This document shows, piece after piece, positions 12,495-54,697 of a stretch of DNA of 64,000 nt (positions within the stretch are counted from its first letter, which is position 1; every line of letters begins with the position of its first letter). The DNA is taken from the IMG/VR virus record IMGVR_UViG_3300027849_000012, positions 1-64,000 of that record; one strand, given 5' to 3'. Source of the DNA: a virus. The notes under the pieces were generated by a model. It had not been told where the DNA came from, searched no databases, and saw only the letters and a program-made list of their open reading frames with translations. A program made the translations under genes and the position numbers.

Positions 12495-13256
12495 TTACTT
12501 CCCCTTTTTGGCTAATTTCTTCAGTGCTTGTACATAGTTAGGCATTCCATGGTCTACTACACCATCAAAGAACTTCCAACGTTTCCATGATTGACCAATA
12601 CCCTTAAAGAAATCTCTCCATGATGGGCCATCGGCTTTATTACCATCACAATCAAAGTAAATCATTTCACCATGATGTACAAATCCTAACCATGCTGGTG
12701 GCATTCTACATACTATATCATTGTTATTCATCATTCGGTAATGATCACATTTGATATTCTTTATAAAGAGTGGTCCTCCGACTCTTGGCGAACCAAAGGT
12801 GAAGAGTTCTTTAGGCTGATAACGTGTGGCACTAATGGTAGCCATAGCAGCACCCAGACTATGCCCAGTAAAATATACATCTTTGGTTGCCTTTAGTTGA
12901 CTATTCTTATCTAGAATTTTTACAATTTCCATCCATACATCATCTACTTCTTGTTGGAAACCACCATGCACTTTACCACCGGCGACAGCACTATTCTTAA
13001 TAACTTTAAGATCAGCTAATACATCATTCAATTTAGCGGGTTCTGTACCTCTGAATGCAAACCAAAGGTTATGACTATCCTTAGTCACTAACACCTCAGC
13101 ACCATCAACACTGATTAAATTAGCATTGGTAAATCCTAATTTTTTACATGCTTCAGCTGCAGGTTTAGGGTCCATATATGCAATGGCTGACAGTTTGGCG
13201 GCCAGTTCTGCCCTTTGCCATACAGTCATTGTTTCTTGTATATTATTCGTCGCCAT
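12495..13256 (-). CDS. Class 3 lipase (alpha/beta hydrolase)
   Basis: 253 aa. A lipase_3 fold is shown by FAFRGTE, the nucleophile elbow GHSLGAAMA (Ser about 133), the FTFGSPRVGGP strand, a candidate Asp in NNNDIVCRMPP (about 180) and a candidate His in VVDHGMPNYV (about 236). There is no signal peptide. The gene overlaps the o-spanin gene end by 14 nt, so it may act on host membrane lipid during lysis (inference). The ATG at 13256 begins MATNNIQETM; an upstream in-frame ATG at 13301 lies inside the o-spanin gene and is unlikely. Confidence 0.85.
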   Translation of the reverse strand: MATNNIQETMTVWQRAELAAKLSAIAYMDPKPAAEACKKLGFTNANLISVDGAEVLVTKDSHNLWFAFRGTEPAKLNDVLADLKVIKNSAVAGGKVHGGFQQEVDDVWMEIVKILDKNSQLKATKDVYFTGHSLGAAMATISATRYQPKELFTFGSPRVGGPLFIKNIKCDHYRMMNNNDIVCRMPPAWLGFVHHGEMIYFDCDGNKADGPSWRDFFKGIGQSWKRWKFFDGVVDHGMPNYVQALKKLAKKGK

Positions 13257-52074: not shown

Positions 52075-52647
52075 TTATACCATAAATAGTTCTAGTTTTT
52101 CCCGAGCTTTCTCTTCTTTAGCAAAGACCTTAATTGCTTCATCCTTGGTTTTAATAGTACTGATTCTTTGTCTTAATGTATCAACATAGTTCATAGTCTC
52201 TTGAGCGCCTTGGCCGTCCATTCCCATAGAAACAAAGTCTTCAATACCCATCTTTTCAATGAACTTAAACTTGATATCCTGTTGCTTCTTCTCTTTGGTT
52301 ATTCGTCTGATAAAGGCGAAATAACAGATCTGAGTGAAGTATGAGAATGCATTAGGTTTACCCGTACGTGTAGCGGTTTCAATGTTATAATTATTGATTG
52401 CTCTTAAACAGTTCTCAACAGCATCCATTACCATTTCTTCACGGTAAGTATAACGTACAAAGTTTGGTCTATGCGATAAACCCTCGGAAATCTTCATAAA
52501 GCACGTAGCAATATAATCAGGAACAACAGGTGGTCTAACCTCTCGTTGTTTAGAATCCCGGGCAATTACAGCATAATCAAACACAGCTTCTGAGAAGTCT
52601 CTATTGTTAACGTAATGTGGTTTTTCTTTCGGCTTAAGTTTGGTCAT
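52075..52647 (-). CDS. 55: Late sigma factor gp55
   Basis: 190 aa. Sigma-70-family minimal factor that recognises TATAAATA late promoters. The core NRDFSEAVFDYAV, ATCFMKISEGL and SYFTQICYFAFIRRITKEKK matches gp55. Many TATAAATA boxes upstream of structural genes in the window fit this. Driven by the promoter at 52669-52697. Confidence 0.92.
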   Translation of the reverse strand: MTKLKPKEKPHYVNNRDFSEAVFDYAVIARDSKQREVRPPVVPDYIATCFMKISEGLSHRPNFVRYTYREEMVMDAVENCLRAINNYNIETATRTGKPNAFSYFTQICYFAFIRRITKEKKQQDIKFKFIEKMGIEDFVSMGMDGQGAQETMNYVDTLRQRISTIKTKDEAIKVFAKEEKAREKLELFMV

Positions 52648-52668
52648 TGTTTTTCTCCATAATAGTAT

Positions 52669-52697
52669 ATTATATCACACTTTAGGGCAAATGTAAA
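52669..52697 (-). promoter_or_regulatory. Sigma70-type promoter for gp55
   Basis: Minus strand TTTACA, 17-nt spacer, TGATATAAT. It lies back to back with a plus-strand promoter at 52742-52770, the -35 boxes being 44 nt apart. Confidence 0.8.
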
Positions 52698-52741
52698 CAA
52701 CTATTTTTATTAAATTAAATGAAAATAAATGCAGAAAACAC

Positions 52742-52770
52742 TTTACTTTTACTGCTAAATGTGATATAAT
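52742..52770 (+). promoter_or_regulatory. Plus-strand copy of the phage promoter (antisense)
   Basis: TTTACT (52742-52747), 17-nt spacer, TATAAT (52765-52770) with TG extension, and the upstream flank AAATAAATGCAGAAAACAC of the cassette. It is the only member of the promoter family on the plus strand. Transcription would start near 52777 and run antisense to the gene at 52807-53184 and uvsW. No convincing plus-strand gene follows. Confidence 0.75.
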
Positions 52771-52806
52771 ATATAAGTCAACCGGAGGGGTAGAGGTATA
52801 CCACTA

Positions 52807-53184
52807 TTAATGTACGGTTCTACCGTCCATATTATCATCTTCTTCTTCATCATACAGGTTATCACTGAACTCTTTAAGTTTCTCAAGTAACTCCATATTG
52901 GATTGAGGTGTGGCTAGGTCACGTTTGGTCATTGCAAATTTAATATAGGACTCTTTTATAGACTGTACCACGTTGCTTTCACCTACTATCTGGCTCTTGT
53001 CCAGTTTGTATGCTCTCTGATCTGAGAACGGGAACCATGGTGTGAACTGAAACCCACCCATCATATTAAACTCTACTAATACAGGTGTCTCAACCATATA
53101 CGTGTTGTCGTTATTATGTTGGATGAATGCTAGAACATCATCGCCATTGATCATCTTAAAATGTCGTATATTAATATCTTCCAT
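52807..53184 (-). CDS. Conserved Sm-like protein next to uvsW
   Basis: 125 aa. HFKMINGDDVLAFIQHN and MVETPVLVEFNMMGGF with TPWFPFS parallel the blocks of the 98-aa protein at 37916-38212 (RLVSGEEIIATV, MPYMPYT), suggesting paralogues of one Sm-like fold. The acidic tail ends DDNMDGRTVH. Sits between uvsW and gp55 as in other T4-like marine phages. Function unknown. Confidence 0.6.
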   Translation of the reverse strand: MEDINIRHFKMINGDDVLAFIQHNNDNTYMVETPVLVEFNMMGGFQFTPWFPFSDQRAYKLDKSQIVGESNVVQSIKESYIKFAMTKRDLATPQSNMELLEKLKEFSDNLYDEEEDDNMDGRTVH

Positions 53185-53185
53185 A

Positions 53186-54697
53186 TTATATATTTATATC
53201 GTATAGCTTGTAGTCGAAGTGTTCCTTACTATAGATTTTAATCCTTTCAGCAGCATGCTGAAGAGTATAGTTCTTCTTGGACTTCCAATGTAAGTCATCA
53301 GCTATGTCATACACCTTAGTATTTTGGCCGTCTGATGACTTTCTTAGTCCCCTTCCGATACTTTGGAGAACCCTAATTTGGCTCTTACTAGGACTAGCAA
53401 ATACAATGTTATGTAAACGCTTAATATTAATACCAGTAGAAAATGTGCCCATACTAGCAACAATAATTGCGTCATTTTGGGTTTCTGTGATAGCCCTAAT
53501 TTCTTCCCTCGTGTCCACATCGGTCTCACCTGAGACATAGAATAACCTCCTAGCATTCCTTGGTAGTTCATTAAATTTCTTTTGCAACATGTCGTGTAGT
53601 GGTTTACCATGTTTGTCGACATATTGGAATAGTATAAGTGTGTTACCCTCGCAATCCATTGCTAGATTAGAAATAAAGTTATTCCTAGGCGTATATGATA
53701 CTATAAAATCAAGCTCTTGTTGGTACGTCCCTTTGGATACAAGCTTACAATATTCAGGGCCGTACTTCAATAACAGTACATTAATATCCAACTGAGCTAG
53801 GTCGTTACTGTCCATAAGTTTCTTAGTAGTAGTAACTCTATGAACCGGCCCAAATAGACCTTCTAGGACAAGCTGATGTGTTTGTGTACCATCTAATGTT
53901 CCTGTAGTACCCATACGATATTTAGCCTCTGTGCATTTTTCGAGGATAGCAGTCAATGACTTAGCTTTAAAGTTATGTGCTTCGTCACCTACCACCATTC
54001 CAAATGGCTGGAACCACGCATGAGTCATTTTATAAATGGACTGCCATGTAGTTATTATAACTCTAGGTTTAATATCATATTTCTCTTTGCCCGCATAAAT
54101 CTTGTGGCAGTTCTCTGTGACGTTCCATTCATCAAACTGGGAATAGTCACCAAAGTCCGAATACATCTGTTCAACCAAAGATGTTGTGGGTACAATCAGA
54201 AGTACACTCTGATCTGATTCTTCCAAGAAAAATCTAATAGATAGATAAATGATTAGCGACTTACCAGAAGCCGTAGGTGATAGTAGTAGTGACTGGCCAT
54301 TAGTTAAAGCATGGTGTACTGCGTCCAACTGATAATCTCTAGGGGTTATCTTATCGCCGCCAGCAGTCAATGTCACCTCAGCCAACAATGACTCTAAATC
54401 AATGACATTCTGAGTACCAGCCATACCATAATAAGAATTAGGCTCAAACTCTAGGTCATACTGTCTAGCATCGGCAAATTCTTTTAGATATTTGAACAGA
54501 CCTGTATATAGAACTTTCTTCCTTAGATCATATAGTCTAATCTTGCCATCCCACATGCGATTTTTATATGCAGGCATAAACTTATAACCCGGGACATAAA
54601 AACAGAAGTGTTCACTGAGTTCCATTTCTATAGAAGGATCTGTTGCAATCTCTAGGAAGGCTTCGTTTTTCTTCTTGATTTTGAGCGTGTCGACCAC
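53186..54697 (-). CDS. uvsW: UvsW helicase
   Basis: 503 aa. Superfamily 2 helicase that unwinds branched DNA and R-loops in recombination-dependent replication. An N-terminal domain with VPGYKFMPAYKNRMWDGKIR, Walker A SPTASGKSL (140-148), DEAH box VVGDEAHNF, motif VI QSIGRGLRKS. Its start overlaps the small upstream gene by 46 nt. Confidence 0.94.
   Translation of the reverse strand: MVDTLKIKKKNEAFLEIATDPSIEMELSEHFCFYVPGYKFMPAYKNRMWDGKIRLYDLRKKVLYTGLFKYLKEFADARQYDLEFEPNSYYGMAGTQNVIDLESLLAEVTLTAGGDKITPRDYQLDAVHHALTNGQSLLLSPTASGKSLIIYLSIRFFLEESDQSVLLIVPTTSLVEQMYSDFGDYSQFDEWNVTENCHKIYAGKEKYDIKPRVIITTWQSIYKMTHAWFQPFGMVVGDEAHNFKAKSLTAILEKCTEAKYRMGTTGTLDGTQTHQLVLEGLFGPVHRVTTTKKLMDSNDLAQLDINVLLLKYGPEYCKLVSKGTYQQELDFIVSYTPRNNFISNLAMDCEGNTLILFQYVDKHGKPLHDMLQKKFNELPRNARRLFYVSGETDVDTREEIRAITETQNDAIIVASMGTFSTGINIKRLHNIVFASPSKSQIRVLQSIGRGLRKSSDGQNTKVYDIADDLHWKSKKNYTLQHAAERIKIYSKEHFDYKLYDINI

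Follow-up and report, generated by a model that had tools for sequence, protein, structure and literature searches.

Judged from sequence, a promoter that reads backward into the 3' end of a small gene upstream of gp55 is near-universal across the Kyanoviridae examined. By family profile and structural model, that small gene encodes an Sm/LSm-fold protein. Our preferred reading, which we hold with middling confidence, is that antisense RNA or transcription from this promoter controls both the Sm-like gene and the boundary between uvsW and gp55.

A divergent promoter between the 125-aa gene and gp55

The window analyzed here, 64 kb in full, is part of a 69,261-base IMG/VR contig (IMGVR_UViG_3300027849_000012) from a T4-like marine phage. 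Its major capsid protein shares 60-61% identity with the counterparts in the Melnitz phages, Phage C48C1, and HTVC008M, which are members of the Kyanoviridae. Genes on the minus strand run in the order uvsY, a 71-aa ORF, uvsW, a 125-aa ORF, gp55, gp47, and gp46. The UvsW-like helicase (503 aa) occupies 53186-54697, the 125-aa ORF 52807-53184, and the gp55-like late sigma factor (190 aa, phrog_234) 52075-52647.

A first-pass annotation of this DNA had described a full promoter with its upstream flank on the plus strand between the last two genes, and both were confirmed. The promoter (52742-52770) consists of a -35 TTTACT at 52742-52747, a 17-nt spacer, and a -10 TATAAT at 52765-52770 preceded by a TGA extension (extended -10 TGATATAAT, ending at 52770); the flank is aaatgaaaataaatgcagaaaacac. 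A strict pattern, TTKACW-N14-TGDTATAAT, had 17 exact matches in the 64 kb, 16 on the minus strand and 1 on the plus strand, versus 0.01 expected from shuffled sequence. That single plus-strand match is 52742-52770, so the description of it as the only plus-strand copy holds, and a looser promoter list gives about 19 on the minus strand, the number against which it had been called inverted. The other 5,261 bases of the contig contain no extra copy of the strict pattern. Many window promoters share an upstream AAACAC beside the -35 (2881, 12092, 28698, 29858, 44887, 46383, 46823, 49156, and 52765), and in other phages a different flank, such as AGGGG or AATCG, is common to both divergent promoters.

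The promoter also lies back to back with that of gp55, as had been stated. Pattern search places the gp55 promoter on the minus strand at 52669-52697 (-35 at 52697-52692, -10 at 52674-52669), and an AT-rich spacer of 44 bp (52698-52741) separates the two -35 boxes. The divergent pair forms a 32-nt inverted repeat whose arms, 44 nt apart, are 78% complementary. The best reading of the antisense promoter's sequence is a host-sigma70-type early promoter. Transcription from it is predicted to begin at G52777, which leaves 30 nt to the stop codon of the 52807-53184 gene, and the conserved initial transcribed region GTCAACCGGAGGGGTAGAGGTATAC (52777-52801, plus strand) comprises a short hairpin position (ACC-GGAGG-GGT) plus GTAGAGGTATAC. 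The RNA would be antisense to the upstream gene, as had been proposed; the further claim that it also opposes uvsW would hold only if the transcript ran on unterminated for more than 400 nt.

The promoter is conserved and follows the upstream gene

Relatives were collected by gp55 and sorted into three groups: A, window-like; B, S-PM2-like cyanophages; and C, HTVC008M-like phages of the pelagiphage type. The order uvsW, 125-aa-type ORF, gp55 is kept among them, with occasional insertions. An antisense promoter no more than 60 nt from the stop codon of the upstream ORF was found at 77 of 77 group A, 148 of 150 group B, and 72 of 79 group C loci; the group B set overlaps between two scans, and an earlier pass without identical sequences gave 93 of 93. 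Phages carrying it include Syn9, P-SSM2, P-HM2, S-RSM4, Mosig, HTVC008M, S-PM2, and C48C1, and the Melnitz promoter is weaker (TTGCTT-N17-TATATT, read by eye). The corresponding starts are predicted, to within 3 nt, on the minus strand near 84,439 in S-PM2 (AJ630128), 123,698 in Syn9 (DQ149023), and 80,260 in HTVC008M (KC465899). Megablast of the region against phage records returned no match. Inspection of related phages, which the first-pass annotation had proposed as a check, thus produced a conserved divergent antisense promoter in all three groups. Promoters of like quality are rare at other antisense-strand positions in these relatives, and that rarity, combined with near-universal presence at this one place, argues that the feature is old and selected. 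Together with the 0.01 matches expected in the window, these two observations rule out a chance or decayed inverted promoter.

The distance from the upstream stop codon to the predicted start is tight, with medians of 29, 24.5, and 28 nt in groups A, B, and C, so that transcription would generally begin about 25 to 30 nt past the end of the upstream gene. Insertions reveal which neighbor the promoter follows. At 10 group C loci, 344 to 1,013 nt separate the upstream ORF from gp55, and in 9 of these the promoter lies 26 to 42 nt from the ORF's stop codon; at one group A locus (L027) it likewise remains within that range of the codon despite separation from gp55. Since the promoter stays with the upstream ORF when gp55 is moved away, the anchor is that ORF, and neither gp55 nor uvsW. 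The framing of the element around gp55 and uvsW in the original description was not supported by this comparison.

The anchoring gene encodes an Sm/LSm-fold protein

Homologues of the 52807-53184 product are usually annotated as "methylamine utilization" (T4-GC 139, phrog_527/471) or hypothetical proteins, and the former label looks wrong. The S-PM2 homologue scores 41.6 bits against Pfam Sm_like PF16243 (cutoff, 29.4), and 14 of 55 family members match this model at an E value of 0.01. A family profile matches PDB 3BY7 (E = 2.3e-5) and also the TIP60 cage, which includes a five-fold Sm-like protein; a phmmer search of PDB with the S-PM2 protein alone gave no match. The window protein alone scores 15.2 against PF16243, under the Pfam cutoff, and its assignment therefore rests on the family profile and the fold. 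An AlphaFold2 model (pLDDT 83) superimposes on 3BY7 with a TM score of 0.89 (by target length) and an rmsd of 1.3, and the next matches are eukaryotic Sm/LSm proteins. Profile and model together identify the product as an Sm/LSm-fold protein. The 3BY7 entry, a marine metagenome Sm-like protein of the same fold and family (PF16243), contains five chains; it concerns the protein, and antisense RNA is not mentioned there. The phage protein carries an acidic tail ending in TVH, and a C-terminal T[IVL]H is invariant in the window's group. From the fold, we infer that the Sm-like protein binds RNA.

A co-varying palindrome marks the predicted start

In nearly all sequences a G, usually GT, lies 6 to 8 nt past the -10, which matches expectation for a start site. 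Around it is a short palindrome whose arms vary together among phages. Group B and C palindromes span the predicted start, with a nearly invariant TGT (93/93 and 62/64, respectively), as in AACTC-TGTCAA-GGGTT, AACCT-TGTAG-AGGTT, CCGG-TATGT-CCGG, and AACGG-TGT-CCGTT. In group A it lies just within the predicted RNA and has a G-rich loop (TATCC-GGGGA-GGATA and TGTC-GGGG-GACA). When initial regions were compared across 81 sequences, the stem was 3 bp in the window phage versus 4 to 7 bp in many relatives. The full downstream element occurs once per contig.

As a control for co-variation, hairpin arms were exchanged between phages. Such swaps lowered pairing from 4.72 to 3.76 bp in group B (maximum of 200 swaps, 4.20) and from 3.69 to 2.62 in group C (maximum, 3.08), and a pairing score from 9.29 to 7.01 in group A (maximum of 300 swaps, 8.33). 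The arms therefore co-vary beyond the partner-swap controls. Against an RNA role stand the short stem and the ordinary stability of the window's plus-strand RNA (z = -0.34), and a palindrome that spans the start, as in groups B and C, may act there as DNA rather than RNA.

The group B start region is also present at a few sense promoters, such as those at S-PM2 162,752 and in S-H38 and S-CAM9. Of 79 hits in a scan for it, 67 fell at the gp55 site; among the other 12, several look like copies of that site that have been truncated or shifted. This recurrence at sense promoters ties the palindrome to the promoter and marks a promoter class without antisense specificity; a role solely as a 3' hairpin of the sense-strand mRNA was set aside on the same ground. 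B-type start regions resembling AACTCTGTnnGGGTTCAAG were seen at sense promoters of small genes at L329:1480-1575 (the S-PM2 162,752 site), L336:1480-1580, and L337:1475-1560, hinting at a shared regulator or a shared start-region function.

Past about 30 nt, no conserved RNA sequence was found. A search for a conserved ORF on the predicted antisense RNA found none in groups A, B, and C, and a hidden small ORF was rejected because longest-ORF lengths vary widely (medians of 31, 7.5, and 23 aa, respectively). Rfam gave no match at or above the gathering score. No conserved terminator for the predicted RNA was detected; the plus strand has a single weak terminator-like site, some 700 nt downstream and no better than chance, and a group B hairpin followed by a T-run about 60 to 75 nt downstream probably arises, as judged by eye, from Lys/SLED codons conserved in the Sm-like gene.

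A promoter that tracks the Sm-like gene instead of gp55, a 5' segment conserved as a hairpin with an invariant start region, and the Sm fold of the product are also what a dedicated small RNA partner of a phage Hfq-like protein, possibly acting in trans, would display. We consider that reading rather unlikely, as the predicted RNA has no conserved 3' end or terminator and neither a conserved target nor a seed was identified.

Spacing to the gp55 promoter is helically phased in two groups

Cyanophages mostly have 2 to 9 bp between the two -35 boxes (median, 6), a gap at which two polymerases could hardly sit together. Spacers in groups A and C cluster at 23 to 27, 32 to 38, 42 to 47, and 54 to 58 bp, with gaps between the clusters. 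Phasing was tested with a single sequence per gp55 cluster below 85% identity and 2,000 jittered sets as the control. At a period of 10.6 bp, phase concentration R was 0.65 in group A (n = 35) and 0.81 in group C (n = 13), values reached in 0 of 2,000 jittered sets. Group B spacers form a single cluster, to which the test is poorly applicable. By this measure, spacing between the antisense and gp55 promoters is helically phased at about 10.6 bp in groups A and C; either direct coupling or A-tract curvature upstream of each promoter could account for this. Phasing in A and C and the narrow gap in cyanophages make mutual influence of the two promoters likely.

Two other explanations draw on this phasing. 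According to the first, the element is a transcription boundary alone, a roadblock or insulator that closes off the uvsY-uvsW-Sm operon at its 3' end, and its RNA has no role. Constant distance past the stop codon, phasing with the gp55 promoter, and loss of RNA conservation after about 30 nt all agree with it, but a roadblock has no need of a co-varying hairpin sequence, and we think this explanation unlikely. The second follows the first-pass annotation, which had proposed an antisense RNA affecting recombination or the switch to late transcription; here the promoter would serve as a gp55/uvsW switch, repressing UvsW early and linking to late sigma expression. Divergence from gp55, helical phasing, and the close -35 boxes of cyanophages favor this model, as does the late expression of T4 UvsW, which unwinds origin R-loops (PMC3016281). 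However, the promoter does not track gp55 where the two are separated, and the uvsW start is more than 400 nt distant, making the switch distinctly improbable.

Proposed function and known systems

Antisense control of the Sm-like gene and of the uvsW/gp55 boundary remains our preferred reading. Host polymerase would make an RNA early from the antisense promoter, its first 30 nt or so unique and the rest complementary to the 3' end of the Sm-like mRNA. The closest functional parallel is OOP RNA of phage lambda, an antisense RNA to the end of cII on its 3' side. By pairing with the Sm-like mRNA as OOP pairs with cII, by convergent transcription, or by both, the phage transcript may repress or tune the Sm-like gene early in infection. 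Read-through of the uvsY-uvsW-Sm operon toward gp55 would also be held down, and repression would last until host-type promoters are switched off. As with OOP, the promoter is on the opposite strand in the gap behind its target gene, reads back across the target's 3' end, and adjoins the start of a replication or regulatory gene. Unlike in lambda, the target is Sm-like, the phage is strictly lytic, conservation is family wide, and a terminator or defined 3' end was not found.

Three other systems invite comparison. The cis-encoded RNA h2cR of hfq2 in Burkholderia cenocepacia acts on the hfq2 5' UTR (PMC3474761); both it and the RNA predicted here are cis-encoded at an Hfq/Sm-type gene, but h2cR is bacterial and works at the 5' UTR, whereas the RNA predicted in the phage would lie at the 3' end. 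CfrI of cyanophage S-PM2, called the first antisense RNA in T4-like phages by a 2010 review, is located at psbA and a homing endonuclease gene (PMC2984593). It too belongs to a Kyanoviridae phage, but the RNA predicted here has the Sm-like gene, uvsW, and gp55 as its neighbors and in each of the three groups maps to the Sm-like/gp55 boundary.

The third system, T4 oriF (uvsY), is an R-loop origin with a sense-direction MotA middle promoter and an AT-rich unwinding element (PMC3016281). Here, too, a promoter lies in the uvsY-uvsW neighborhood, and its transcript could be imagined to prime the leading strand until UvsW unwinds it. The surrounding recombination and replication genes, a purine-rich RNA start (64-68% in groups A and B), and easily melted downstream DNA in group B (percentile, 0.10-0.20) would suit an origin. 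In groups A and C the downstream DNA is not easily melted (percentiles of 0.48-0.75 and 0.41-0.72, respectively), which weakens this reading, and the promoter is of the sigma70 type, with a -35 and extended -10, rather than the MotA type. GC skew was uninformative as an origin signal, merely tracking gene direction. We regard an origin as very improbable. From most to least probable, we rank the alternatives as partner RNA, pure roadblock, gp55/uvsW switch, and R-loop origin.

A more ambitious proposition is that the locus is a riboregulatory module common to the whole family, in which an Sm/LSm protein and an antisense-encoded partner RNA, with a stop-codon-fixed promoter helix-phased and mechanically coupled to the late sigma promoter, together set the early-to-late switch; as a whole this seems improbable. 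Our search of the open literature, a coverage outside which the Syn9 transcription-start study (Doron 2016) falls, turned up no account of an antisense promoter at the Sm-like/gp55 site, and a built-in antisense RNA switch at an Sm-like gene appears so far undescribed.

Cyanophages and pelagiphages rank with the most abundant marine viruses, and the timing of their transcription, which lacks the MotA/AsiA system of T4, is an open question (PMC2984593). A promoter that almost all of the phages examined hold at the same exact position, encoding no protein, would put antisense transcription in their core program, with a phage Sm-like protein as its target. Phages with cultured hosts, including S-PM2, Syn9, P-HM2, and HTVC008M, make the antisense reading directly testable.

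Two minor observations concern individual relatives. In Melnitz-3, a 96-bp opposite-strand "hypothetical protein" (L091:3426-3521) runs across the divergent promoter region and is unlikely to be a real gene. In HTVC008M (L324), strong promoter-like sites lie on the minus strand at 13016, 19439, and 23548, in or near plus-strand structural genes.
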